Shown: positions 4,118-35,363 of the stretch, in pieces
How positions within the stretch are numbered: the stretch's first letter is position 1
Layout: each line of letters starts with the position of its first letter
From: Lentisphaeria bacterium
GTDB lineage: Bacteria; Verrucomicrobiota; Lentisphaeria; Victivallales; UBA1829
Assembly (NCBI GenBank): GCA_017541665.1
Contig: JAFXYP010000011.1
Span: 1 to 35,363, forward strand
Length of the DNA: 35,363 nucleotides
Direction: 5' to 3'
Program-made: the position numbers and the translations under genes
Notes under the pieces: generated by a model
Told to the model about the DNA's origin: nothing
Database searches by the model: none
The model's input: the letters and a program-made list of their open reading frames with translations, nothing else

Positions 4118-5830
4118 ATGGTCGAAGTCATTTTGAAAATGCCAGGACAGCCGGATTCCCCGCTGAGCATTCCGCCCGGCCAGTACCAGGTCGGATCGTC
4201 CGAGGCGGTCCCGATCCAGCTTCCGTTCGTGGGCGTCTCGAAGCTCCACTGCGTGATTCAGGCGCAGGATTCCTCGCTCCGTATCGCCGACCTCGGCAGC
4301 TCCAACGGCACGTACCTGAACGGACAGCGCATCGGACGCGAGTTCGTGAACGTGCCCGCGGACAGCGACATCGAGATCGGCTCCGTACACATCATCGTCG
4401 GGGCGGCGCGTCCCGGCTCGAAGCCCGGGCGCCCCGCCTCCGCCCCGCCTCCGCCCTCAGAAGTCCCCGCCGACTCCGAACAGCAGTTCAAAAGCCGCAT
4501 CCTCGCGGTCAGCGGGATCCCGATGTCGGCACGTCCCCTCGTGCAGGAGATCAAGAAGCAGGCGCACAGCGAACTGCTGGTTCGCCTGAACATGAAGCGC
4601 CTGGCGCTCAACAGCGTCTCGGAAAACGACCTGGAGGAGAAGGCTCGGACGACCATCCACGAGATCCTGAACGAACTCTCCATCCCGCTGCCGGCGGGCG
4701 TGACGCAGGAGAAGATCGAAAACGAGCTTTACCACGAAGCGATCGGGCTCGGCCCGCTGGAGGACCTCATCGCGCGCGACGACATCACCGAAATCATGGT
4801 CAACGGCCCGGACAACGTCTATGTCGAGCACAACGGCATCCTTTATAAGACCGATACCGCGTTCGCCGACGACCACCAGGTGCTCGCCGCCATCGAACGC
4901 ATCGTCTCCCCGCTCGGGCGCCGCATCGACGAGAGTTCGCCGATGGTCGACGCCCGCCTGAAGGACGGATCCCGCGTGAACGCCATCATCCCGCCGCTCT
5001 CCCTGGTCGGCCCCTCCATCACGATCCGAAAGTTCGCCAAGACGCCCCTCACCGTGGAGAAACTGGTCTCGTACGGTTCGATTACCGCCGAGATTGCGCA
5101 TTTCCTGGACGTCTGCGTGAAACTCCGCAAGAATATCCTGATCTCCGGCGGAACGGGAAGCGGCAAGACGACCCTGCTGAACATCCTGAGCGGATACCTG
5201 CCCGCGACGGAACGGATCATCACCATCGAGGATGCCGCCGAACTCCAGCTGAGGCAGGAGCACCTGGTCCGCCTGGAGTCCCGCCCCGCCAACATCGAGG
5301 GGAAGGGCGAGGTCACGATCCGCGACCTGGTGCGCAACGCCCTGCGCATGCGCCCCGACCGCATCGTCATCGGCGAATGCCGCGGCGGCGAGGCGCTCGA
5401 CATGCTCCAGGCCATGAACACCGGCCACGACGGCTCGCTGACCACGATCCATGCGAACTCCCCGCGCGACGCGCTTGCACGCCTCGAAACGCTCGTCCTG
5501 ATGGCGGGGTTCGACCTGCCCCTGCGCGCCATTCGCGAGCAGATCGCGTCCGCCATCTCCATCATCGTCCAGATCAACCGCGAGAAGGACGGCAGCCGCA
5601 AGGTTGTGTGCGTGAGCGAGATCACCAAGATGGAGGGAGACATCATCACGATGCAGGACCTCTTCGAATTCCGCCAGGACGGCTGGAGCGAGGACGGACG
5701 CCTGCTGGGGCACTTCGAGCCGACCGGCGCGATCCCCACCTTCATCGAGGACATCCGCCGCGCCAACCTCGACTTGGACCTTTCCATGTTCTCGCCGACT
5801 CCAAGAGCGGGCAAGAGGGGAGGCATTTGA
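4118..5830 (+). CDS. cpaF: FHA domain fused to CpaF/TadA secretion ATPase
   Basis: A 570-residue fusion. Residues 1-95 form an FHA domain with SKLHC (41-45) and SSNGT (61-65). A proline-rich linker (about 97-118) leads to a full CpaF/VirB11-type ATPase, with Walker A GGTGSGKT (344-351), the acidic IIEDAAEL-like box near 368-375, RPDRIVIGECRGGEALDML (412-430) and the His box LTTIHAN (441-447). CpaF powers Tad pilus assembly from the inner face of the membrane. The FHA lacks the usual phosphate-binding Arg: VGSSEA stands where other FHA domains have a GR. Most CpaF proteins have no FHA domain, so the fusion suggests control by phospho-threonine or docking to a partner. tadB follows one base after the stop. 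Confidence 0.93.
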   Translation: MVEVILKMPGQPDSPLSIPPGQYQVGSSEAVPIQLPFVGVSKLHCVIQAQDSSLRIADLGSSNGTYLNGQRIGREFVNVPADSDIEIGSVHIIVGAARPGSKPGRPASAPPPPSEVPADSEQQFKSRILAVSGIPMSARPLVQEIKKQAHSELLVRLNMKRLALNSVSENDLEEKARTTIHEILNELSIPLPAGVTQEKIENELYHEAIGLGPLEDLIARDDITEIMVNGPDNVYVEHNGILYKTDTAFADDHQVLAAIERIVSPLGRRIDESSPMVDARLKDGSRVNAIIPPLSLVGPSITIRKFAKTPLTVEKLVSYGSITAEIAHFLDVCVKLRKNILISGGTGSGKTTLLNILSGYLPATERIITIEDAAELQLRQEHLVRLESRPANIEGKGEVTIRDLVRNALRMRPDRIVIGECRGGEALDMLQAMNTGHDGSLTTIHANSPRDALARLETLVLMAGFDLPLRAIREQIASAISIIVQINREKDGSRKVVCVSEITKMEGDIITMQDLFEFRQDGWSEDGRLLGHFEPTGAIPTFIEDIRRANLDLDLSMFSPTPRAGKRGGI

Positions 5831-5831
5831 C

Positions 5832-6731
5832 ATGCCGGACTTCATTTCGGAGAACATGTACCTGCTGGCATCCGTCTGCGCCGGGCTGTGCGCGCTGTTC
5901 GCCACGTTCGTGATCGTGGAATTCATGTCCTACACGTCCGCCCGCTACAAGGAACGTTTTCTGGCGGAGGCGGCGGTCGAGCTGGACGACATCCTGCTCC
6001 AGATGCCGGCGAACCGGATCCTGGACCTGAGCATCGCGATCGCCGCGGTGTCGTTCATCCTGTTCGGCGGGCTGAGTTCGTTCCTGTCGAGCGAAGTCAG
6101 CTGGATACGGACCATCGCGGTCGGCACGGTTTCGGCCGTCATCGGGTTCCTGGCGCCCCGCTTCTACCTGAGGGCGCTGAAGAAACAGCGTCTGGCGAAG
6201 TTCAACGAGCAGCTGGAGGACGCTCTCCTCTCCATGAGCAGCGCGTTGAAGGCCGGGTTCAGCATTACGCAGGCGCTGGAGAACGTCGCCTCGGAGAACC
6301 GGTATCCCATTTCATTTGAATTCACGCTGCTCCTGCAGGAACTCCGCCTCGGCGTGCAGTTCGATGCCGCGCTCCGCAAGATGGCCGATCGCCTCGAGTC
6401 CCAGGATTTCGAGCTTGTTTCCGTGGCGATCATTACGGCGCGGCAGACGGGCGGCGAACTGACGTCCGTGCTGGAGGAGCTGGCGGGCGTGATCCGCGAA
6501 CGCATGCGCATCATGCAGCGTGTGCGCGCCCTGACATCCCAGGGCCGTATGCAGGCATGGCTGATCGCGTCCGTGCCGTTCGTGCTCATGTTCGCGATGA
6601 TGCGCCTGGCGCCCGACCTGATGGACCCCTTCTTCGGGTCCCTGGCGGGGATCGTAGTGCTCGGGCTGGTCATCGTCATGGTCGTCTGCGGGTTCCTGTG
6701 GATCCGTAAAATCACGACGATCGACGTGTAA
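5832..6731 (+). CDS. tadB: Tad inner-membrane platform protein TadB
   Basis: A 299-residue protein of the type II secretion F family. It has hydrophobic segments at about 9-31, 48-68, 77-97, 240-262 and 268-290, around a cytoplasmic helical domain. That domain contains LEDALLSMSSALKAGFSITQALE and ITARQTGGELTSVLEELAGVIR, both typical of TadB. TadB and TadC form the membrane platform on which the CpaF ATPase acts. The start is one base after the cpaF stop, which implies translational coupling. Confidence 0.9.
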   Translation: MPDFISENMYLLASVCAGLCALFATFVIVEFMSYTSARYKERFLAEAAVELDDILLQMPANRILDLSIAIAAVSFILFGGLSSFLSSEVSWIRTIAVGTVSAVIGFLAPRFYLRALKKQRLAKFNEQLEDALLSMSSALKAGFSITQALENVASENRYPISFEFTLLLQELRLGVQFDAALRKMADRLESQDFELVSVAIITARQTGGELTSVLEELAGVIRERMRIMQRVRALTSQGRMQAWLIASVPFVLMFAMMRLAPDLMDPFFGSLAGIVVLGLVIVMVVCGFLWIRKITTIDV

Positions 6732-6743
6732 AGGAGGAGGCAA

Positions 6744-7622
6744 ATGGAACAGATCTTCATGCTTCTGGCAAGCATTTTCGCCGGGATGTGCGCGGCCTCC
6801 GTGGTGCTTCTTGTCGCGGAAATGATCTCCGCGATCGACGTCGAGAAGGCGCAGTTCGGCGAGGACGCGCGCCATATCCCCGTATTTTTCCGCATCTTCC
6901 TGCCGTTCACGCCGAATTTCCGGCGGCTCTGCGCCTCGGAAGCTCTTTCCGGCAACATGAAGAAACTGCGCGAACAGCTCGCCATGGCGGGCTACGAGCA
7001 GGCTCTGACCGCGGAGCAGTTCATGACGGTGCGTATCCTGATGGGTGTCCTCGGCGTCCTTTTCACGGTCCTCTTTTTCGCCTCAAACAACGCGATGGCG
7101 GGACTCCTGGTGCTGTTCTGCATGGTGTTTTATCCGCAGGTGTGGCTTCGCGGCCTGGTCGCGCGCCGGCACCTGCAGATTCTGAAGGCCCTGCCGAACG
7201 TGCTGGACCTGCTGACGCTGTCCGTCGAGGCGGGCAAGGACTTCGTGACTGCCCTTCGCGACATTCTGAACCGCCGTCCGGCGGACGAGCTCGGGCTCGA
7301 GCTTCGCAAAGCGCTCCACGAGATCCAGCTCGGCAAGCCGCGCCATACCGCGCTGAAGGAAATGACGCAGCGCGTCCGCCAGCCCGAACTGACCAGCGTC
7401 CTGAACGCGATCGTACAGTCCGACGAACTCGGCGTGAGCATCGGCCAGGTCCTGCGGATCCAGGCGGAACAGCTCCGCGCGAAACGGTTCGCACGTGCCG
7501 AAAAGCTGGCGAGCGAAGCGCCCGTGAAGATCCTTTTCCCCGTGGCGCTGCTGATCTTCCCCGCCGTGTTTACCGTGGTGATCGCGCCGATGCTGATGCG
7601 CGCGCTGGAGATTTTCAAGTGA
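6744..7622 (+). CDS. tadC: Tad inner-membrane platform protein TadC
   Basis: A 292-residue T2SSF-family protein that pairs with TadB. It has a membrane helix near 7-25, two adjacent helices near 97-135, the cytoplasmic block NVLDLLTLSVEAGKDFVTAL and SVLNAIVQSDELGVSIGQVL, and a final helix near 265-285. The start has a strong AAGGAGGAG ribosome site. Its TGA overlaps the GTG start of the next gene. Confidence 0.9.
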   Translation: MEQIFMLLASIFAGMCAASVVLLVAEMISAIDVEKAQFGEDARHIPVFFRIFLPFTPNFRRLCASEALSGNMKKLREQLAMAGYEQALTAEQFMTVRILMGVLGVLFTVLFFASNNAMAGLLVLFCMVFYPQVWLRGLVARRHLQILKALPNVLDLLTLSVEAGKDFVTALRDILNRRPADELGLELRKALHEIQLGKPRHTALKEMTQRVRQPELTSVLNAIVQSDELGVSIGQVLRIQAEQLRAKRFARAEKLASEAPVKILFPVALLIFPAVFTVVIAPMLMRALEIFK

Positions 7623-8056
7623 TCCGGAACCTCACAAAAAAGACCGTGCTGTCCTACCGGACCTTCCAGGCCGTGTCGTTCGCCGACCGCCTGCGCGGGA
7701 TGATCGGACGCCCGTTCGAACAGATCGGGATCGACGCGATGGTCTTTCCGTCATGTTCCAGCATCCATACGTGTTTTATGACGTTTCCTATCGACGTGAT
7801 CTTCCTCGGGACGGACAATACCGTCCTGCAGACGCATCCCGGCTGCCGCCCCTGGCGGTTCGCCGTGTGGTGCAGGGGGGCGCAGTCGGTGATAGAACTT
7901 CCCCCGGGCGCGCTCGCGCACACGGGAACCATGCCCGGGGACCGGCTTGACCTGAATGCCGAGACCGTGCCGCCGGAGAAACAGACGAATTTCACCACTC
8001 ATACAGCCGGGGAGCAAAGTACGGTGTGCCCCAGCAAGGAGAATCCGACAGTATGA
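7619..8056 (+). CDS. DUF192 (COG1430) family protein
   Basis: A 145-residue protein. The family core is clear: RLRGMIGRPFEQIGIDAMVF, then IHTCFMTFPIDVIFLGTDN, and VIELPPGALAHTGTMPGDRL near the end. The biochemical role of DUF192 is not settled. The GTG start at 7619 overlaps the tadC stop by four bases, and the stop overlaps the next ATG as ATGA. This tight coupling places it in the Tad operon, and an accessory role in pilus assembly is inferred from position alone. No signal peptide is seen with this start. The last 20 or so residues look unstructured. Confidence 0.85.
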   Translation: MIRNLTKKTVLSYRTFQAVSFADRLRGMIGRPFEQIGIDAMVFPSCSSIHTCFMTFPIDVIFLGTDNTVLQTHPGCRPWRFAVWCRGAQSVIELPPGALAHTGTMPGDRLDLNAETVPPEKQTNFTTHTAGEQSTVCPSKENPTV

Positions 8057-9555
8057 AAATCATGTATCTGAACGGCGCTTTGACCGGGCAGACGATGGAA
8101 CTGATCCCCTCCGGCACGATGATCGGCCGCGAGAGCGACAACACCATCCAGCTGCCGATGGGGGGCGTTTCCCGCTACCATGCGAAAATCGAGCGCGATG
8201 CCGCCGGGAACTGGTTGATCCGCGACCTGGGCAGTACCAACGGCACGCTCGTTGACGATATCCCCGTGGAAGGCGTGGCACGCCTCGCATCCGGTTCCGT
8301 CATCACGATCGGAGACCAGCTCCTGCGGTGCATGGATTCCGCTCCGGCGCCGGCGGGAAATCCGCCATCCGTCCAGCCCGGTCCGGCCGTGCAGCCGTCT
8401 TCCGCTTCACCTCAACCGACCGTGCAGCAATCCCCCCAGGTGCAGCAGCCATTTTTCTTCCGTCCGCAGAATACGACGTCCAATGTCCCGACCAGCACGG
8501 GGCCGGTCCCGGAGATGCCGAAACCCGCCCCCGCGCCTTCTGCGCCGTCTCCTGCCTCCGCTCCCGTTTCCCCTGCGGAAGTCCCGCACGGGCTTTTCAA
8601 GAAGAAGCAGAACGCCGCGCAGCAGGCGAACCACACGAAGAAGCTCCTGAGCAACGTGATCTTCGCCCTGATCGTGATCCTGGCCGCATGCGTTGGACTT
8701 TGGATTTTCCTCAAGCTGAACGAGACTTCGCAGACGCCTGTCAACCAGCCCCCCGCCAAAAAGAAGGTCGAGAACCCCTTCGTCCTCTACTACGAAAAGG
8801 AATCCGTTTCGGGGACCGCGGTGTTCCGTTTCGTGCTCCAGGTCGAAAACGGCCTCATGGAGGTTACGCTGGACGAGCCGCAGAACAAGCGTCGCTACTA
8901 TGAACTCTTCAAGGAGCCGCTCCCCGACACGCTGATCGAAAAGCTCAAGCAGCAGATCCTGGATTCCGGCTTCATGGACCTCCAGCAGGAGAAAATCGCC
9001 GGGACCTCGCAGGACAACCGCCAGCATCGCCGCATCATGGTCGGGTTCGGCAGCAAGTTCTGCGACGTGAAGGTCTCCAACGACGTCTCCGAGACGTTCA
9101 ACCGCGTGGAGACCATCATCAACGAGACTCTGCTCGACGAATACGATCTCGGCGTGATCTCCCAGAACGTCGACCGGATCCTGGAGGACGCACGCACGTT
9201 CCTGTTCGTCGCCGAGGAGGCGTTCCGCAATATCGACACCACCCCGTCCAATCTGCCGAAGGCGATCGTCAACTACAGGCTCGCCCTGCGCCGCTACCAG
9301 CTTTTCGACGACCCGAAGCCCGCGGAGTGGAAGACTGCACGCGACGGGCTCGCGAAGGCCGAAGCCAAGCTGGAGGAGATTCACCAGGAGGGGCTGAAGA
9401 ACGTCCGCCTCTTCTACGAGCAGCGCGAGTACGACAAGGCCATCGCCGAGTGCAACCGCCTGCTTGACATCTTCCCGCCCGACAGCAAGACCTACCAGGC
9501 CATCCGGGAAAACAAGATCAAAATCGAGAAAAAAATGTCTTTGAGGAACAACTGA
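8053..9555 (+). CDS. Membrane-anchored FHA domain protein
   Basis: A 500-residue protein. Residues 1-92 are a full FHA domain with IGRESDN (24-30), SRYHAKI (40-46) and STNGT (61-65), so all phospho-threonine contacts are present. A long Pro/Ser/Gln-rich linker (about 96-180) is followed by KKK and a single membrane helix (about 199-220). The remaining 280 residues would be outside the cytoplasm. They end in a helical TPR-like stretch (NVRLFYEQREYDKAIAECNR onward). The ATG overlaps the previous stop and has AAGGAG ten bases upstream. The layout suggests a receptor that binds a phosphorylated partner inside and acts in the periplasm. The periplasmic domain is not recognised. Confidence 0.85.
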   Translation: MKIMYLNGALTGQTMELIPSGTMIGRESDNTIQLPMGGVSRYHAKIERDAAGNWLIRDLGSTNGTLVDDIPVEGVARLASGSVITIGDQLLRCMDSAPAPAGNPPSVQPGPAVQPSSASPQPTVQQSPQVQQPFFFRPQNTTSNVPTSTGPVPEMPKPAPAPSAPSPASAPVSPAEVPHGLFKKKQNAAQQANHTKKLLSNVIFALIVILAACVGLWIFLKLNETSQTPVNQPPAKKKVENPFVLYYEKESVSGTAVFRFVLQVENGLMEVTLDEPQNKRRYYELFKEPLPDTLIEKLKQQILDSGFMDLQQEKIAGTSQDNRQHRRIMVGFGSKFCDVKVSNDVSETFNRVETIINETLLDEYDLGVISQNVDRILEDARTFLFVAEEAFRNIDTTPSNLPKAIVNYRLALRRYQLFDDPKPAEWKTARDGLAKAEAKLEEIHQEGLKNVRLFYEQREYDKAIAECNRLLDIFPPDSKTYQAIRENKIKIEKKMSLRNN

Positions 9556-9556
9556 T

Positions 9557-10921
9557 ATGATGAAACGTCTTTTTCTCTCTGCTGTCTGTTCCGTCTGCGC
9601 CGCAGCCCTCACGTTCCTGCCTTCGTGCGAAAAGAAGATGCCCGAAAAAGACCTGAGCGACTACGGCAGCATGAACATCACGTCCGAGCCGTCCGGCGCC
9701 CAGGTCTCCATCCTCGGCAAGGTCATCGGCACGACCCCGCGCGTGACCAATCCCGTGCCCTCCGCGATGTATATCGTGAAAATCTCCATGGACGGCTACG
9801 AGCCCGCCTGGCTGCCGGTGACCGTCGTCCCGGGCCGTCAGGTCGATGCCCATGTCGCGCTCGTGCCGGAAACTGCCACGGTCATCATCAACTCCGAACC
9901 GACCGGCGCCCATGTGCAGATGAACGGGCAGGAGATCGGCGACACGCCCGTGCTCCTGCCGGACCTTGCGCTCGGATCCTATTCCGCCTCCGTCCAGATG
10001 GCCGGCTACACGCGCCGCGACATCTCCTGGAAGGTGCAGAACGGACGGCCGATCCTGATCAACGTCCCGCTGATGAACAACATCGGCACGCTTTCCGTGA
10101 ACAGCAACCCGGAAACCGCCGAGCTCGAGATCGACGGCCTGTCCTACGGCACCACGCCGTTCAAGGACTTCCTTGAACAGGGCCAGCATAAGATCCGCCT
10201 CGCGAAGACCGGTTACAAACCCTATGAGAAGATCGTGACGGTGAAACGGGACGAGACCACGGAGGAGGATATCTCCCTGGAGATGCTTCCCGGCTCCCTC
10301 TCCCTCGACAGCGAGCCCACCGGCGCCGCCCTCTTCATCAACGGCATCGACTACGGCGTGACGCCCTACAAGCGCGACTCCATCGAGGCCGGCGACTACA
10401 CCATCCTCCTGAAGAAGGACGGCTACGACCCGCTGGAGCAGACCGTCACGGTCCACCCGGGCGAGCCCATGGACCGCACGTTCACGCTCGATTCGAACAC
10501 CGGCAGCATCATCCTCTCCGTGAACCCGCCCGGCATGAACATCTACCTCGACGGCAAGTTCATCTGCCGGACCGAAGCGGAGTCCAAGTCCCGCGACGTC
10601 TCCAGGCGCGTGACGATCAAGAACCTCGCCGCAGGAGAGCACACGATCACCGTGTCGAACAAGTACGCCAAGCCCGATGTAAAGAGCATCACGATTACCG
10701 TCGGCAAAGGCAAGGCCGTGCAGGTCCCGGAAGTCTCCTTCTGGCTGCCCGACACCACGATCATCCTGAAGAACGGCAGCAAATACACGGGCCGCCTGTC
10801 CGACAAGTATACCGAGGAATCCAAGAAGATCGCGTTCCGCCATTCCGCCGGCATCACCGAAGAATACAACAAGACCGACATTCAGGAGATCATCCCCCTG
10901 AATATCATCGACGGGGAGTGA
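9557..10921 (+). CDS. PEGA-repeat lipoprotein
   Basis: A 454-residue protein with a signal peptide ending FLPSC, making Cys24 a likely lipidation site; the Pro in the lipobox is unusual. Five PEGA repeats follow at about 38-102, 107-171, 177-243, 246-312 and 316-395, each starting with a beta strand and a SEPSGA/SEPTGA-like turn and carrying a GTTP, GDTP or GVTP motif. PEGA domains occur in cell-surface proteins. The C-terminal 50 residues (LKNGSKYTGRLSDKY onward) are distinct. The start lies right after the FHA gene stop, with GAGGAA nine bases before. A surface partner of the Tad system is inferred. Confidence 0.88.
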   Translation: MMKRLFLSAVCSVCAAALTFLPSCEKKMPEKDLSDYGSMNITSEPSGAQVSILGKVIGTTPRVTNPVPSAMYIVKISMDGYEPAWLPVTVVPGRQVDAHVALVPETATVIINSEPTGAHVQMNGQEIGDTPVLLPDLALGSYSASVQMAGYTRRDISWKVQNGRPILINVPLMNNIGTLSVNSNPETAELEIDGLSYGTTPFKDFLEQGQHKIRLAKTGYKPYEKIVTVKRDETTEEDISLEMLPGSLSLDSEPTGAALFINGIDYGVTPYKRDSIEAGDYTILLKKDGYDPLEQTVTVHPGEPMDRTFTLDSNTGSIILSVNPPGMNIYLDGKFICRTEAESKSRDVSRRVTIKNLAAGEHTITVSNKYAKPDVKSITITVGKGKAVQVPEVSFWLPDTTIILKNGSKYTGRLSDKYTEESKKIAFRHSAGITEEYNKTDIQEIIPLNIIDGE

Positions 10922-12171: not shown

Positions 12172-12498
12172 ATGCACTTTTATCGTCTTGACGTTTACGT
12201 GCCGGATTCGCATGTGGAGGCCGTGAAAACGGCGATCTTCGAGGCCGGGGCCGGGTACTTCGGCAACTACGATTCCTGCTGCTGGCAGACCGAGGGGACC
12301 GGACAGTTCCGTCCGCTGGATGGCGCGCATCCGTTCTACGGCGAACCCGGCCGCGTGGAGCACGTGAAGGAATGGAAGCTGGAGTTCGTGGTGGAGGAAA
12401 GCGTGCTGGGAGTCGTCCTGACGGCCCTGAAAGAGTCGCATCCGTACGAGACGCCGTCCTTCCAGTACTGGCCGGTCAACCGCCACTGGCAGGCGTGA
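12172..12498 (+). CDS. COG3323 (YqfO/NIF3-insert, PII-like) protein
   Basis: A 108-residue stand-alone version of the PII/CutA-like domain found inserted in some NIF3/YqfO proteins. The diagnostic blocks are VPDSHVEAVKTAIFEAGAG, GNYDSCCWQTEGTGQFRPL, and ESHPYETPSFQYWPV at the end. The function is unknown; the related CutA and PII folds are trimeric and bind metals or small ligands. AAGGAG precedes the start. It is the last plus-strand gene before the palindrome array. Confidence 0.85.
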   Translation: MHFYRLDVYVPDSHVEAVKTAIFEAGAGYFGNYDSCCWQTEGTGQFRPLDGAHPFYGEPGRVEHVKEWKLEFVVEESVLGVVLTALKESHPYETPSFQYWPVNRHWQA

Positions 12499-12914
12499 GG
12501 ACAAGTCCTCAACTGATATAGTGCCCGGCTGCGCTCGGGCACTGTACGGCACACAATGTGTGTGCTCAAGCGAAGCTGAGAGCACTACTACAGCACACGC
12601 AGTGTGTGCTCAAGCGAAGCTGAGAGCACTACTACAGCACACGCAATGTGTGCTCAAGCGAAGCTGAGAGCACTACTGTAGTGGAGGGCTTGCCCTCCCA
12701 AGCGAAGCTGAGAGCACTACTACAGCACACGCAATGTGTGCTCAAGCGAAGCAGAGAGCACTACTGTAGTGGAGGGCTTGCCCTCCCAAGCGAAGCTGAG
12801 AGCACTACTGTAGTGGAGGACTTGCCCTCCCAAGCGAAGCTGAGAGCACTACTGTAGTGGAGGGCTTGCCCTCCCAAGCGAAGCTGAGAGCACTACTACA
12901 GCACACGCAGTGTG
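12499..12914. repeat. Modular palindrome array with exact 44-bp period
   Basis: The region lies between two convergent genes. A 22-base core beginning AAGCGAAGCTGAGAGCACTA starts at 12568, 12612, 12656, 12700, 12744, 12788, 12832 and 12876, always 44 bases apart; the copy at 12744 has one substitution. Each core is followed by one of two 22-base modules. Type A contains AGCACAC-5 bases-GTGTGCT; type B contains CACTAC-T-GTAGTG and GGAGGGC-TT-GCCCTCC. The order of modules after the cores is A, A, B, A, B, B, B, A (last one cut). Upstream lie two unrelated hairpins, GAGGAC-AA-GTCCTC (about 12497-12510) and AGTGCCCG-8 bases-CGGGCACT (about 12520-12543). It may act as a two-way terminator or a REP/BIME-like element. 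Confidence 0.9.
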
Positions 12915-13421: not shown

Positions 13422-15212
13422 TTACTTCTTTTTGTCGATCTGTTCGGTGAGTTTCCGCAGGGACTCGTGCATTTCCACGAAATCGTAGTAGAGCGTCTGG
13501 GAACGCTCCTTCGTGAGGCGGAGCTGGTGAGCTTTCTTCAGGTCGGGTTCGCCGGTGAAGACGAAGCACTGCGCCGTGGAGGTTTGCCCGAGGTCGGTCG
13601 AGGAGACTTTCACGACCACGCCGACAAAGAAGCCTTCCTTCGACAGCACGATGTCGCCGACATCTGCCCTGAGCTCGCTGGAGGAACGGTTCGAGTTGCG
13701 GATGTACAGGTAGTTGTCGCCCTGCTTCATGCTGACGGAGCAGCGGCCGGTGATGTCGGCGGAATCCTTCGAGAAGGTCGCCGACTTGAAGAGCGTGAGG
13801 TTGTCCACGCCGCGTTCGCGGAGCGCGTCGAATGTGATCGCGCGGATGGGTTCGGCCTTGCCCGCGTCGACGGGGAAGATGCACACGCGTGCGTCTTCCG
13901 CCAGGCAGATGGCGGGGCCAGTGACGGCGGACCATTTGTCCTTGCTCTGCGGGCGGCGTGCCTTGTACTCGAGCTCGGTGACCTTGGTGTAGCCGGAGTA
14001 CAGGTTGAGGGCGGTCGTGTCGCGGAAGGCGGAGACGAGCCAGGTCTTTCCGTTGAGCGTCACGGCCGGTAGGAAGAAGGATTTGTCGATGACGATGTTG
14101 TTGAAGATGCGGTCGTTGACGAGGTGGAAGGAGAGCTCCAGAGCGGAGGCGTTGTAGCTGGTGAGGACGTCGTTGCTGAGCATCTTCTTCAGTTCTTCGG
14201 CTTCCTTGCGGGTCTCGGCCAGGTCGCGCTGCTTGTCCGCGATCTGCCTGTCCTTCTCGCCCATGAGCTTTTCGGTCTGCGCGATCTGCTTGTCCTTCTC
14301 GCCCATGAGCTTTTCGGTCTGCGCGATCGTTTCCTTCGAGACGGCAAGCGACTGTTCGGATTTATCCAGGTCGGATTTCGTCTTCACGAGGTCGGAATTG
14401 ACGTCCGCCAGCACGCGCACCATGCCGCTCAGCTGGGTCTGCGCGGAAGTGAGCTGGGACTTCGTTTCGACGAGTTCGACTTCGGCGGCGTGGAATTTCG
14501 CGACGGCCTCGTCGGCGCGTGCGCGGTCGAGGCGGGCCTGTTCGCGGAGCGCCTCGAGTTCGAGCTTCGTCATTTCGAGCTGGCCGGAAGTCCGGGACAG
14601 GGACTTCTCGCTCTCCTGGAGTTTTTCGGTGGCGGCGGCCTTTTCCTGCATGACGCGCGCGAGGGAACGTTCGCTCCTTTCGAGGAGGTCTTCGCTTTCG
14701 CGGATGACCTTGTCGCGTTCCACGAGTTCCTTCGCGGAGATCTTCAGTTCGCTCTCCTTCTGCTCGATGACGGCGGCGGAACGCTTCAGCGCGGCCTCGC
14801 GTTCGTCGAGCTCCTTTTTGATCCTGGCGAGTTCTGCAGCGCTCTTCGCGAGATCCTGTTCGGACTTGGTCTTTTCGGAGGAGAGTTCGTCCCTCGATTG
14901 CGTGAGTGCGGCGAGGGTCTCGGCGAGTTTGGCCTGGGCCTGTGCGATCTCCTCGTCCTTGGACAGGAGCTGCTTTTCGTCCTTGAGCGCGAGTTCGCGG
15001 AATTCCTCAAGGCGTTTTTCCAGCTCGTCCTTCTGCTCCTTCACCGCTTCGTGGCGGGCAAGCTCCTCGTCGATCATCTCGACCAGGCGCGACGCCGGAG
15101 ACGAGATCTTCGCGGCTCCGGAGGGGTCTCCGACTTCGGTCATTCCGATCGACAGGGACATTGCCGCCAGGACCAGGAAGTCGCATGTGACAATGAGAAT
15201 GGACCGGTTCAC
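13422..15212 (-). CDS. MotB/ExbD-like single-span protein with long coiled coil
   Basis: A 596-residue protein. The N-terminus MNRSILIVTCDFLVLAAMSL is one membrane helix with a buried acidic residue, D11. It reads like the proton-binding helices of MotB (ADF...) and ExbD (IDV...). Residues from about 38 to 345 are an almost unbroken, highly charged coiled coil. The C-terminal 240 residues form a globular domain that I do not recognise; the block GDIVLSKEGFFVGVVV is faintly trypsin-fold-like, but no catalytic triad is evident. With the N-terminus inside, the coil and the C-domain would be periplasmic. The ATG overlaps the stop of the channel-like gene as ATGA. A PMF-driven stator subunit is inferred. 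Confidence 0.7.
   Translation of the reverse strand: MNRSILIVTCDFLVLAAMSLSIGMTEVGDPSGAAKISSPASRLVEMIDEELARHEAVKEQKDELEKRLEEFRELALKDEKQLLSKDEEIAQAQAKLAETLAALTQSRDELSSEKTKSEQDLAKSAAELARIKKELDEREAALKRSAAVIEQKESELKISAKELVERDKVIRESEDLLERSERSLARVMQEKAAATEKLQESEKSLSRTSGQLEMTKLELEALREQARLDRARADEAVAKFHAAEVELVETKSQLTSAQTQLSGMVRVLADVNSDLVKTKSDLDKSEQSLAVSKETIAQTEKLMGEKDKQIAQTEKLMGEKDRQIADKQRDLAETRKEAEELKKMLSNDVLTSYNASALELSFHLVNDRIFNNIVIDKSFFLPAVTLNGKTWLVSAFRDTTALNLYSGYTKVTELEYKARRPQSKDKWSAVTGPAICLAEDARVCIFPVDAGKAEPIRAITFDALRERGVDNLTLFKSATFSKDSADITGRCSVSMKQGDNYLYIRNSNRSSSELRADVGDIVLSKEGFFVGVVVKVSSTDLGQTSTAQCFVFTGEPDLKKAHQLRLTKERSQTLYYDFVEMHESLRKLTEQIDKKK
14242..14328. repeat. 42-bp tandem duplication inside the coiled-coil gene
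   Basis: Two adjacent copies with a 42-bp period (identical over 38 bases starting at 14249 and 14291) encode two copies of the 14-residue unit IAQTEKLMGEKDKQ. The shift is exactly four heptads' worth over two units (28 residues) or two heptads per unit, so the coiled-coil register is kept. Confidence 0.85.
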
Positions 15213-15775
15213 TTTTCGGATTCCTTTTCGTTGAGTTCAGCGGCGGCGCAGATGAGGGACTGCTTCAGCGGGTACTGGAGCGTCAGCCGCAGGATCACGC
15301 TGAAGATGATGCCGACGAGCGTGGAGGAGTATGCGATGAGTCGGCTGATGTTCGGGTTGAACGACATCACGATGAAGCTGGCGACGGTGCCGAGCAGGCC
15401 GAAATACAGCGGCAGGTCCAGGAAGAGGTCGGCGTTGTCAAGCTTTTTCAGTCGGACCGGGACGGGTTCGGTACTGTGCTTCAGGCCGGAGAAGACGCCG
15501 GCGGCGGTCACGAACGCAAACGCCTGGAGAATGAGGATGAAAATGAGGATGAAGAACGACAGGTGCGCCGCCGTCCTGTTGATGCTTTCGACGGTTTTCG
15601 CCGCCTCGTGGATGTCATTTTCCGTCGCGTGCTGCGTCGATGTGGTCACGTTGCCTTCGAAGAGCGAACGGAAGAAATCGTTTGTTCTGTAGAGATAGGA
15701 AAGGGCAAGGATGATCAAAACCGCTATGACGGTGCAGATGACGGCGAGTCCGAGAATCCTGGATGATTTTTTCAC
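15209..15775 (-). CDS. MotA/TolQ/ExbB-like channel subunit
   Basis: A 188-residue protein with four predicted membrane helices (about 7-29, 70-95, 119-139 and 146-166). The last two carry the pattern of the MotA/TolQ/ExbB core: LYFGLLGTVASFIV, then a short loop and ISRLIAYSSTLVGIIFSVILR, with the small and Thr/Ser residues of the ion path. The start is GTG (15773-15775) with GGAGG eight bases before. It overlaps the next gene by four bases. The two genes together look like a two-subunit ion-driven motor unit. The long loop between helices 1 and 2 (30-69) is unlike classical ExbB. Confidence 0.72.
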   Translation of the reverse strand: MKKSSRILGLAVICTVIAVLIILALSYLYRTNDFFRSLFEGNVTTSTQHATENDIHEAAKTVESINRTAAHLSFFILIFILILQAFAFVTAAGVFSGLKHSTEPVPVRLKKLDNADLFLDLPLYFGLLGTVASFIVMSFNPNISRLIAYSSTLVGIIFSVILRLTLQYPLKQSLICAAAELNEKESEK

Positions 15776-23904: not shown

Positions 23905-23994
23905 TAATGGAATAAACTAACGCCATGACCCCGCCGGCCCGCATGCGACCTCCCTCTCTGCCCGGCGGCCATGGTGCAACAGGAAGACGATCCC

Positions 23995-26376
23995 ATGCTT
24001 TTTTGTCCGAAATGCCAGCAGCTTACGCCGACCACGCCGCAGAAACACGACGACGGCACGGTGACGTATCTCTGCAAGAAATGCGGAGACGTCATCCCGC
24101 TTCGCTGCGAACTCCGGCCGGGCGAGGTCGTGGCAGGGTTCGAGATTGAGGAGGAGATCGGACGCGGCGCCATGGGGATCGTGTACCAGGCGAAACAGAC
24201 CAATCTCGACCGGGAAGTGGCGATCAAGATTCTGTCCGACGACAGCGCCAGCGACGAGCTGTATGTGGAACGTTTCTTCCGCGAGGCGAGGGCGGCGGCC
24301 AGCCTGTCGCACCCGAACGTGGTGCAGGCCTACGACGCCGGCGTGACCGACGACGGCATCTATTATTTCGTGATGGAAAAGATCACCGGGGAGAACCTGG
24401 AGCGCGTGCTGAACAACGTCGGCCCGCTGAACATTCCGCAGGCGCTGGACGTCTTCATTTCCGTCGCCAACGCCCTGTCCTACGCCTGGACGCGCAACCA
24501 GCTCAGCCACGGCGACATCAAGCCGGAAAACATCATCATGCGCCTGAACGGGAAGGTGAAGCTCGCCGACTTCGGGCTCGCGCGCCGGGCGAAGGACCCC
24601 GAGCTCGCCGACGAGGACATCCGCGCGACGCCCGCCTATGCCCCGCCGGAGATCATCAACGGCGACAAGGACGTCCCCGGGTTCAAGTCCGACATGTATT
24701 CCTTCGGCGCCACGGCCTACCATATTCTGATCGGGCATGAACCGTTCGTCGGGACGGACCCCATGAAGGTCTGCGCCATGCAGCTTTCCGATATCCAGAC
24801 TCCGCTTCGCGAGCTTAATCCGAATATCCCGAAACGACTCTCCGACCTTGTTGACGCCCTCATGATGAAGAATCCTGCGGACAGGCCCGAAGCATGGAGC
24901 GACGTGGTCGACGAACTGAAGTCGATTCGCCGGGACATCGCGGCGTCCGCCTCCGCGTCCGATGACCCGTCCGAAGAAAAAACGGACGACGGGACAGGCC
25001 GTGTCTCCGCTCCGCCGATGCGAAGGAAGATCCCCGTCGCGGCCGTCGCGGCTGCCGCCGTGCTTCTCCTGGTCGTGATCGCGGTCGTCGTGGCAGTCTC
25101 CCTGCGCTCTGGTGGCGGCGGAAGCGGGAATGTTCCGCCTGTATCCGGCAAGCCGTCCGCTCCCGCGGGTCCGGCGTCCGCTTCGACGGTCAAACCCGGT
25201 TCCACTTCGGTCCGCGACGAGGCGTTCTACCAGGCGAGATGGAAGATGATCCGGGAGGAGTCCAAAGAGTCCGGCCTGGAGCTGAGGCAGGTCGAGAAGT
25301 TTGTCAATGAGGCCGGTGCGAAAGCGCCCGCGGAGGCGGTCCGTGCGCTCGAATCCCTGCGCGCCGCGGAAAACCAGAGCCGTGCGCTGGTCCTTCGGAA
25401 CGAGCTCCTGGACCAGGCGGCGGCGTTCAAACCGGAGGAGGCGAAGGAACTGGATCCCGATTCGCTGAACAAGCTCTGCCTGTCCGTCATGTCGAAACGC
25501 GACGAGCTGAAAAGGCTCGACGATTCCCTGGCCGAACATGTTTTCCTGCCGGAACATCAGAAAGAGGTCGATGCCTATGTGAAACGGCTCGCCGACCTGC
25601 ATCTTGCCGCGTCCCTGGGCGGAGAGATCGCCATCGGGACGAAGACGGAGCCTGTCAAAACGGACCCGGCGGATCCGGCGCCGGAAAAGGATTCCGGCCC
25701 GGTCGTGGCGGAGCCTGTCAAAACGGATCCGGCAGCCTTGGAGCAGGGGCCGATGGATGAAAGCGTCGCCGGAAAGGTGGAGGATTCCAAGCTTTCCCTG
25801 AACTATGTGCTCCTGCTGGACTGCCTGCCGAACACGATCGAGGACGAATCGGAACGCGCCGACGCGCTCAGGATGCTGAACGAGCTTCTGGCGGACAAGG
25901 CTTTCACAGACGAGATCCCGCGGCGAAACTGCCTCGGCATCCGGAAATTCCTGGTCCTGAATCAGCAGTCGCTCCTGCCGTATCTTGTCGCCGACGAATC
26001 CGCCCTGCGCGGCATGAAGCTCTTCCCGCATGCCTATCCGGACAGCATCCTCGACGCCATCTCCGAATCCACATTCCGCCTGAAGGTGCCCGATCAGAAG
26101 GCCAGCATCATCCAGAAAGTCTCCTGGAACAAACTCCGCAGGGACGAGGGGGAGGACCGGATCATCGTCACCCTCATCAACAGCCCGCAGCTCGCGAAGC
26201 TCTCGGAGGAATTCCGCGAGAACCTGTTTGTGCGCGCCATCTTCCTCGGCGTCGATTCCGAGCTTCTCAAGAAGCGTTTCGAACGCGCTTCCGGCCTGTC
26301 CGCCGGGAAAATGGAAGAACTGGGCCGGATCGCCGGTTTCTTCCGGAAGTCCGTGTTCGACGAGGAAGAAGACTGA
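23995..26376 (+). CDS. Membrane Ser/Thr kinase with N-terminal zinc ribbon
   Basis: A 793-residue Hanks-type kinase. Residues 4-30 form a zinc ribbon (C4, C7, C27, C30). The kinase domain (about 49-312) has the Gly loop IGRGAMGIVY, K78 in VAIK, the catalytic loop SHGDIKPENI (D174) and DFG (192-194). The usual HRD Arg is Gly, so it is a non-RD kinase. One membrane helix (about 348-370) leads to a 420-residue outer part that I do not recognise. Within it EPVKTDPA occurs twice, 21 residues apart. The ATG at 23995 has AGGAAG eight bases upstream; an ATG at 23971 lacks a site. FHA proteins 12-20 kb upstream are plausible partners, but this is inference. Confidence 0.9.
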   Translation: MLFCPKCQQLTPTTPQKHDDGTVTYLCKKCGDVIPLRCELRPGEVVAGFEIEEEIGRGAMGIVYQAKQTNLDREVAIKILSDDSASDELYVERFFREARAAASLSHPNVVQAYDAGVTDDGIYYFVMEKITGENLERVLNNVGPLNIPQALDVFISVANALSYAWTRNQLSHGDIKPENIIMRLNGKVKLADFGLARRAKDPELADEDIRATPAYAPPEIINGDKDVPGFKSDMYSFGATAYHILIGHEPFVGTDPMKVCAMQLSDIQTPLRELNPNIPKRLSDLVDALMMKNPADRPEAWSDVVDELKSIRRDIAASASASDDPSEEKTDDGTGRVSAPPMRRKIPVAAVAAAAVLLLVVIAVVVAVSLRSGGGGSGNVPPVSGKPSAPAGPASASTVKPGSTSVRDEAFYQARWKMIREESKESGLELRQVEKFVNEAGAKAPAEAVRALESLRAAENQSRALVLRNELLDQAAAFKPEEAKELDPDSLNKLCLSVMSKRDELKRLDDSLAEHVFLPEHQKEVDAYVKRLADLHLAASLGGEIAIGTKTEPVKTDPADPAPEKDSGPVVAEPVKTDPAALEQGPMDESVAGKVEDSKLSLNYVLLLDCLPNTIEDESERADALRMLNELLADKAFTDEIPRRNCLGIRKFLVLNQQSLLPYLVADESALRGMKLFPHAYPDSILDAISESTFRLKVPDQKASIIQKVSWNKLRRDEGEDRIIVTLINSPQLAKLSEEFRENLFVRAIFLGVDSELLKKRFERASGLSAGKMEELGRIAGFFRKSVFDEEED

Positions 26377-33737: not shown

Positions 33738-35363
33738 ATGGCCCAATACGATATCGTCAAAGGTGTCAAAAGCTCCGGCCTCACTCTAAATGAAAACGAC
33801 AATATGTTCGTTTACAAGGGTGGCTCCGCAATCTCCACCAGTGTCAAAACCGGACATCTGAATATTTTCTCGGGAGGAAAAACGTTTACCACCTGGGTCG
33901 ACTTCAATGGCCTTGTCACGGTCTTATCCGGCGGCATAGCGAGCCAGACCAATCTTTCCAGCACCTTCGCAAGCATGCACCTTTCCGGCGGCACGGCAAA
34001 CCTGACCGTGATTCAGTCAAACGGAAGGCTGGATGTCCTGACGGGCGGCGTCGCGAACCACACCTATGTTCTTGGCGGCTCCCTGATCATCTCCAACGGC
34101 GGCAAAGCTGTCAATACGGAACTTGACAGAGGCGGCATTGCCACCGTCCTGTCCGGCGGCAGCATGATAAACACCCGCATCAGTTCCTATAAGGATACCA
34201 CCGGAGCATACAAGGATTCCAGCGGCAAATTGCATGTCTCTTCCGGCGGAAGTGTGACTTCGGTCACCGTTTTCTCCGGCGGCTCCCTGATCGTTTCCAA
34301 CAGCGGGGAGGCGAACAAAGCTATGGTCTCCTCCGGCGGCAGCGCGATCGTTTTAGCCGGCGGGAAAGCGAACAGCACCATGGTGTCTTCCGTCGGCAGG
34401 CTGATCGTCTCCAACGGCGGCTCGGCTGTCGGGACCACGGTCAGCGATGGCGGCAGGATGGTCGTTTCCATCGGCGGAGTTGCGGGCAATACCACGGTTT
34501 CCTCCGGCGGCAGCATGGTCCTCTCCAGCGGCGGCACGGCGACCAAGGCGACCGTCAAAAAGGGCAACGTCATCGTTTATTCGACCGCTTCCATGACGGA
34601 CCTCAAACTCAGCGGCGGTTCCCTTTACATCCAAAACGGTGCGATCGTCAATTCGATCACGAACAAGGGCGCGGAACTGACGATAGAGAAAGGCGCCGTC
34701 GTCGACAATTACAAGGGCAATCCCGTGAAATTCCCGGACTGCGACGGCGGATGGAACAACTACCTGTCCAGCGGGACCGGACCGGAGGCGATCAATACGA
34801 ATGTCACCAATAAGGCCGCGGTCAAAATGGCTCCAGCCACCGCAAAGATCCAGATGGACACGAACAATGTCTCCTACAACGGACTGAGCAACTACGTCGG
34901 ATACGGAGACGAAGCGGATTTCGAGAAGATCTCCCTGAACTATGCCGCGACACTGTCCTTTATCGTTTCCGCCACGGGTGCGACGAAATTCACGATCTGG
35001 AGCCTGACTTCCGGCACGAAGGTGAAATCCCTTCAGGCGACTTCGCTGAAGAAGAATGCGAAGACCGGAGAATACTATGTGGAAACGAAAGGTCTTCTGC
35101 TCGAGGCGGACACTTATTACATTTCCGTGCAGTCCACCGATGCGAAAAAAGGCGGCAACGCCTACTATAGTGTCGCCATGAACAGCGAAAGCGTGTTCTA
35201 TTCCAAGGGAAAGAGCTTCGATAACGACTGGAATGCTTTCGTCAAGGACAATTACACCGGAGAAGGTTATCTCGGGATTGTCGACGGCAAGAAGGAAAAA
35301 CTGGTCGCCAACGAGTGGGTCGGCTACACGGACCCGATCGATTTCCGGAAATTCAAGCTCGCC
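33738..35363 (+). CDS. Strand-loop-strand (AIDA-type) repeat surface protein, N-terminal part
   Basis: An open frame of 542 codons that runs off the right edge. It starts MAQYDIVKGVKSSGLTLNEN with an AAGG site nine bases upstream. Residues from about 25 to 300 are 19-20-residue repeats of the form VSSGGSxIVxxGGxAxxTx, the passenger repeat of AIDA-like adhesins (beta-helix). From about 380 a different beta-rich domain follows (SLNYAATLSFIVSATGATKF onward), resembling pre-peptidase C-terminal domains. No signal peptide is visible at this start. Proteins with such repeats are typically on the cell surface. The export route and any C-terminal anchor are outside the window. Confidence 0.85.
   Translation, partial: MAQYDIVKGVKSSGLTLNENDNMFVYKGGSAISTSVKTGHLNIFSGGKTFTTWVDFNGLVTVLSGGIASQTNLSSTFASMHLSGGTANLTVIQSNGRLDVLTGGVANHTYVLGGSLIISNGGKAVNTELDRGGIATVLSGGSMINTRISSYKDTTGAYKDSSGKLHVSSGGSVTSVTVFSGGSLIVSNSGEANKAMVSSGGSAIVLAGGKANSTMVSSVGRLIVSNGGSAVGTTVSDGGRMVVSIGGVAGNTTVSSGGSMVLSSGGTATKATVKKGNVIVYSTASMTDLKLSGGSLYIQNGAIVNSITNKGAELTIEKGAVVDNYKGNPVKFPDCDGGWNNYLSSGTGPEAINTNVTNKAAVKMAPATAKIQMDTNNVSYNGLSNYVGYGDEADFEKISLNYAATLSFIVSATGATKFTIWSLTSGTKVKSLQATSLKKNAKTGEYYVETKGLLLEADTYYISVQSTDAKKGGNAYYSVAMNSESVFYSKGKSFDNDWNAFVKDNYTGEGYLGIVDGKKEKLVANEWVGYTDPIDFRKFKLA
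34224..34563 (+). repeat. 57-bp protein-coding repeats of the AIDA-type region
   Basis: Six or so consecutive units of about 57 bases encode the best-conserved 19-residue strand-loop-strand repeats (for example VSSGGSAIVLAGGKANSTM and VSSVGRLIVSNGGSAVGTT). Base identity between units is partial. Weaker units extend on both sides, from about 33816 to 34650. Confidence 0.75.

Follow-up and report, generated by a model that had tools for sequence, protein, structure and literature searches.

Known or proposed ion-driven motors of the 5:2 type amount to a handful (MotAB, ExbBD, TolQR, GldLM, AglRQS, ZorAB and the vWA types). We asked whether two overlapping genes of a Lentisphaeria bacterium encode another. 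The genes, here called A and B, lie in the window, by which we mean the whole stretch of 35,363 nucleotides that was analysed (contig JAFXYP010000011.1 of assembly GCA_017541665.1). A preliminary description had read them as a stator-like pair joined by an ATGA overlap. Both reading frames were found at the stated positions, on the minus strand. The genes do overlap by four nucleotides, but the letters are GTGA, because B starts with a GTG codon. The features of the locus, with the basis for each, are as follows.

15209..15775, minus strand: gene A, 188 aa, four-TM channel-like protein, predicted N-in/C-in with a short cytoplasmic loop (ORF, homologues, AF2 model)
15359..15421, minus strand: TM3 of A with DLPLYFGLLGTVASF (conservation; aligns with the GLxGTV helix of TolQ/ExbB)
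15281..15349, minus strand: TM4 of A with IAYSSTLVGII (conservation; aligns with the ALxTTxxGL helix of TolQ/ExbB)
15209..15212, minus strand: overlap of the A stop and B start, 4 nt, GTGA (sequence; the -4 overlap recurs in many homologous loci)
13422..15212, minus strand: gene B, 596 aa, membrane helix, coiled coil and predicted HtrA-like domain (ORF; downstream of A)
15141..15200, minus strand: membrane helix of B, residues 5-24 (sequence and conservation)
15180..15182, minus strand: Asp11 codon of B, proposed ion-binding carboxylate (invariant in 58/58 tabulated B proteins)
14178..15080, minus strand: coiled coil of B, residues 45-345 (heptad power, no Pro)
13425..14174, minus strand: C-domain of B, residues 347-596, predicted HtrA/DegP-like chymotrypsin fold without the catalytic triad (AF2, Foldseek, VIA)

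A gene pair conserved across Verrucomicrobiota

Gene A is present in 98 of the 198 genomes of the class, one of which (G080) holds a marginal fragment, and a wider profile found it in 116 of 384 sampled genomes of the phylum, once per genome. B lies directly downstream of A in all of the approximately 60 loci that were read across the phylum, about 40 from the order (Victivallales) and 20 from elsewhere in the class and phylum; among the order loci, B is truncated where the contig ends in one and interrupted by an in-frame stop in another. The window's own family comprises 36 genomes, with A in 21 and absent from 15. The C-domain of B was found in 20 of the 21 A-bearing genomes and in none of those without A; in the remaining A-bearing genome, G006, the contig ends within B. 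The expected co-occurrence of the two genes is thus borne out, with 21 genomes of the family carrying both and 15 neither (an exact chance of 1.8e-10 when shared ancestry and completeness are ignored), and A and B form a pair conserved across Verrucomicrobiota.

The rest of the window holds several features of separate interest. Type II secretion-like genes occupy positions 4118-9552 of the plus strand, including a T2SSE gene with an N-terminal FHA domain at 4118 and a T2SSF gene at 5832; another FHA protein is encoded at 8026. They are followed by a plus-strand gene (9557-10921) whose product has five PEGA repeats and, towards its C-terminus, a stretch resembling the LA_0442/LA_0875 N-terminal domain. 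A short direct repeat (12800-12910, around gagcactactgtagtggag and cttgccctcccaagcgaagctga) separates the gene at 12172-12498 from a DMT_6 gene. An open-ended reading frame with AIDA autotransporter stalk repeats lies at 33738-35363 of the plus strand.

Relationship of protein A to the MotA/TolQ/ExbB channels

Protein A has four hydrophobic helices. As described earlier, it carries an LYFGLLGTV motif (LPLYFGLLGTV, residues 121-131) and a Thr/Ser-rich last helix (IAYSSTLVGII, residues 147-157). Judged by its charges, A would have both termini and the TM2-TM3 loop (VRLKKLDNAD) in the cytoplasm, giving a putative topology of the MotA type with a cytoplasmic loop of approximately 20 residues. The length of A is about 180 residues in Victivallales. 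In most far lineages the core forms the end of a protein of approximately 570 aa with a large extra N-terminal region, and the short form is retained in a few of them (L123-L126).

Conservation is concentrated in the last two helices and beside them. Among 61 A proteins, D120, Y124, G126, A148, Y149 and G155 never vary, and only Thr or Ser occurs at position 130. Positions 150-152 hold S/T/A, then S/T, then T/N, with T152 replaced by Asn in eight proteins. Counted from the cytoplasmic end, T130 stands 10 residues from D120, T152 stands 11 from R163, and Asp11 of B stands 8 from R3; given these spacings, the three residues would share a similar depth in the membrane.

The preliminary description had assigned A to the MotA/TolQ/ExbB channels. 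Topology, motif register and, less firmly, fold argue for this assignment, but matches to Pfam or NCBIfam profiles do not. PF01618 was absent from the hmmscan matches of A and 22 relatives at E values up to 1, and the NCBIfam profiles likewise gave no MotA_ExbB match, either for A or for its relatives. PF01618 (ExbB/TolQ-type) was recognised at five loci of the same genome. Profile-profile comparison gave weak support. With hhalign, A aligned to local TolQ/ExbB profiles at P = 0.0012-0.02, depending on the profiles used, and reverse controls gave 0.06-0.4. The alignment paired FGLxGTV with GLxGTV and AYSSTLVGI with ALxTTxxGL in register. When profile columns were shuffled within blocks of ten, an equally high score arose in 2-3 of 200 trials, and an A profile built from far homologues only gave P = 0.43 against TolQ. 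We consider the register match of both helices weak but specific. Other matches to A were set aside: those to FlhB/Bac_export_2 and DUF443 (E 0.002-0.01) were below cut-offs or due to membrane-helix composition, and that of G138 was a spurious match to an RND-type transporter.

The AF2 model of A (pLDDT 76, from an alignment of 11 sequences drawn from the window and related loci) found nothing significant with Foldseek (E 1.4 or worse). In VIA comparisons it superposed on type II ZorA with Z 8.9 over 98 aligned residues at 2.3 Å, nearly all of the 99 residues modelled in the ZorA chain, and on TolQ, ExbB and MotA with Z of approximately 6-7.6; ZorA, TolQ, ExbB, MotA or PomA made up 23 of the 50 structure entries listed. 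CorA scored 9.4, above ZorA, so a Z near 9 can be generic for helical bundles and the fold comparison is supportive rather than decisive. Searches of PDB sequences with profiles of A and of the C-domain of B returned nothing relevant. By these finer tests A is probably a channel of the MotA/TolQ/ExbB type, and the pair probably works like members of that family, although membership by sequence profile is not demonstrated.

The Asp helix, coiled coil and C-domain of protein B

The only membrane helix of B, MNRSILIVTCDFLVLAAMSLSIGM, carries Asp11 in a CDF context, in keeping with the preliminary description, and the residue proved invariant in all 58 tabulated B proteins across the phylum. Within the first 26 residues only Met1 and Asp11 are invariant in this set. 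The consensus reads MN(R/K)(S/T/A)(I/L)L(I/L)(V/I)xCDF, and the neighbours of Asp11 vary, with Cys10 replaced by Met, Leu or Ile and Phe12 by Val. Near B proteins had initially been chosen by the CDF pattern, yet every near locus had one. The far set was chosen on residues 1-7 only, and the far B of locus L129, which this filter missed, likewise has CDF. B therefore presents what is found in partners of the MotB, ExbD, TolR and ZorB type, a single N-terminal helix with an invariant Asp.

The V-T-C-D sequence of this helix could be mistaken for a lipoprotein signal. We rejected this reading, as the Cys has just nine residues before it, Ile or Met mostly occupies position -1, and in some far homologues the Cys gives way to Met, Leu or Ile while the Asp stays.

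The helix also bears on the idea that A and B are an accessory force transducer, docking in the manner of TolA or TonB on one of the cell's canonical ExbB/TolQ motors. Five PF01618 loci in the genome could supply such a motor, and B resembles TolA in running from a helix through a long helical stalk to a globular end. Its membrane helix carries an Asp, however, and lacks the SHLS motif with which TolA and TonB dock (PMC12204202). In addition, the partner of B is always its own A and not ExbB or TolQ. We regard a transducer of this kind as very unlikely.

A coiled coil follows the helix, as proposed earlier. Residues 45-345 (301 residues) contain no Pro and four Gly, and their hydrophobic power at the heptad period (3.5) is 30.4, compared to 10.0 ± 3.4 in shuffled sequences. 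The preliminary description had drawn attention to a length near 45 nm. The arithmetic (300 x 0.15 nm) is right for an unbroken coil, but length varies among homologues, from approximately 50-100 residues in the 344-aa B of locus L140 to about 300 or more. Because coil length is not conserved, reaching 45 nm is not essential to B. It had also been suggested that B might extend to the cell surface, and nothing in the analysis supports surface exposure. Matches of B to SMC, JetC and DndD were below cut-offs or arose from coil composition. In locus L054 the coil region of the B gene is interrupted by an in-frame stop, which marks either a pseudogene or an assembly error.

B has no Pfam match to OmpA or ExbD, and its C-terminal domain models as HtrA-like instead, which supports the earlier proposal of a coiled-coil stalk in place of those domains. 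This C-domain had been called an unknown fold, a label that no longer holds. Its AF2 model (pLDDT 86, likewise from an 11-deep alignment) matched HtrA/DegP-type proteins with a Foldseek E of 1.7e-6 and VIA Z of 13.3 over 197 residues at 4.1 Å. The domain is thus predicted to be a chymotrypsin-type double barrel of the HtrA/DegP kind; in far homologues the fold was assigned by sequence alignment to the modelled one.

Given this fold, B could be an active HtrA-type protease on a coiled-coil anchor, with A as its membrane cofactor, and a Z of 13.3 would fit such an enzyme. The His-Asp-Ser triad of HtrA (S1C) proteases was not found in an alignment of 57 C-domain sequences. The nucleophile position, 518, holds Val, Pro, Arg, Ile, Ala, Gln or Glu, with no Ser among the common residues, and the best His column reaches 12 of 57. 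In place of the GNSGGP loop there is x-G-D, with G519 in all 57 sequences and D520 in 55. An active protease is thus extremely improbable. Since the triad residues are missing, the C-domain is predicted to be a pseudoprotease and is most likely a binding domain.

A proposed motor and its relation to known systems

We estimate a probability of roughly 70% that A and B are divergent ion-motor-like partners, distributed phylum-wide, with a coiled coil as the shaft and a pseudoprotease at its end. In the mechanism that we propose, the two proteins would work in the inner membrane as a 5:2-type motor powered by ions. A ring of several A subunits (by analogy, five) would enclose the N-terminal helices of a B dimer, and ions would move between polar sites in TM3 and TM4 of A (T130, S151/T152) and the two Asp11 carboxylates. 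Their passage would shift B relative to A, presumably by rotation or pulling. The coiled coil would transmit this motion into the periplasm, where the HtrA-like end may bind, anchor on or pull a putative target. In ZorAB, MotAB and their relatives, which are 5:2 motors, the Asp is ringed by Ser/Thr (PMC11890865).

A different view of the pair comes from its neighbours. Outside the window's family, a Ser/Thr kinase gene is next after B in 26 of 28 Victivallales loci. Its product has Pkinase, PEGA-like and FGE-sulfatase domains, the gap to B is usually less than 60 nt, and an ABC-F gene often follows. A and B might accordingly be a transmembrane sensor or tether, in which the coil and pseudoprotease monitor the envelope and the pair relays its state to the adjacent kinase, with Asp11 in a structural role; HtrA-like pseudoprotease folds are plausible as binding domains. 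The window's family and the far loci read, however, have no kinase gene adjoining the pair (in the window, the DMT_6 gene comes after it), indicating that the pair works without an adjacent one. Moreover, an Asp that is invariant across the phylum in a drifting helix, together with conserved Thr/Ser in two helices of the partner, would be unusual for a plain tether. We therefore consider the sensor or tether unlikely. Under the motor reading, the apparent operon that the pair shares with the kinase gene in most Victivallales (the window's family excepted) suggests that the kinase regulates the pair or receives signals from it, and we take this neighbour as a lead to regulation rather than to function in general. 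A separate 801-aa Ser/Thr kinase with a Cys-rich N-terminal segment is encoded in the window at 23971-26376 (plus strand), apart from the A-B pair.

The balance of evidence tilts towards a more specific proposal, that A and B represent an undescribed phylum-wide class of 5:2 ion motor whose single-polypeptide partner combines the Asp helix, a coiled-coil drive shaft and a pseudoprotease end-effector, linked in Victivallales to a transmembrane Ser/Thr kinase. In the open-access literature searched, neither the pair nor an HtrA-like motor partner was found described. If the proposal is true, sequence profiles have missed an additional motor that recurs across a phylum and whose coiled-coil shaft bears a protease fold that no longer cuts. 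The pair would be a test case for how diverse periplasmic tools are driven by one small channel core. It would also give a first functional lead for two gene families without annotation.

Zorya is among the closest known systems: the type II ZorA core (approximately 100 residues, short cytoplasmic loop) superposes on A, and its partner, like B, has an N-terminal Asp helix. The coil, however, is on the ZorA side, in the cytoplasm, whereas here it is on B and, judged by charge, in the periplasm. B also lacks an OmpA-like peptidoglycan domain, and no effector genes stand beside the pair; zorC/zorD, zorE and zorF/G were not recurrent neighbours in the 60 loci, and PADLOC made no ZorA or ZorB call for A or B. 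We rejected Zorya as the identity of the pair, as type II ZorA was found in only 1 of the 241 genomes sampled from the phylum, where it has neighbours of its own. A aligned to this single phylum ZorA at P = 0.017 with the core profile and 0.33 with a narrower one (hhalign). A type II Zorya-like locus with ZorA2, a ZorB-like protein and an HNH-like protein lies at 401-3557 of L141 (G316), in another member of the phylum.

With ExbBD, TolQR and MotAB the pair shares the two-gene arrangement, the GLxGTV and Thr-rich helices, the four-helix MotA-like topology predicted for A and the Asp in the partner's single helix. It differs in that A falls below PF01618 detection and has a cytoplasmic loop of about 20 residues, and B bears a coil and a predicted HtrA-like domain rather than an ExbD or OmpA domain. 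The predicted chymotrypsin fold of the C-domain recalls HtrA, DegP and DegS, and DegS is likewise membrane-anchored. Unlike these proteases, B has no triad and no PDZ domain was seen in it, and its domain is joined to a coil and an Asp helix.

Periplasmic domains are varied in the survey of MotAB homologues in PMC12505986. The TPH-vWA motors also resemble the pair. In PMC12204202, vWA proteins that carry an Asp 'transpore helix' are proposed to act directly inside TolQ-like pentamers without TolR, and further systems of that kind are expected. In those motors too, the Asp helix is fused directly to a linker, followed by a globular domain other than ExbD, and they also occur in Verrucomicrobia. 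In the A-B pair, by contrast, the globular domain is predicted to be HtrA-like rather than vWA, a coiled coil serves as the linker, a single B gene takes the place of a heterologous pair, and the putative channel is more diverged.
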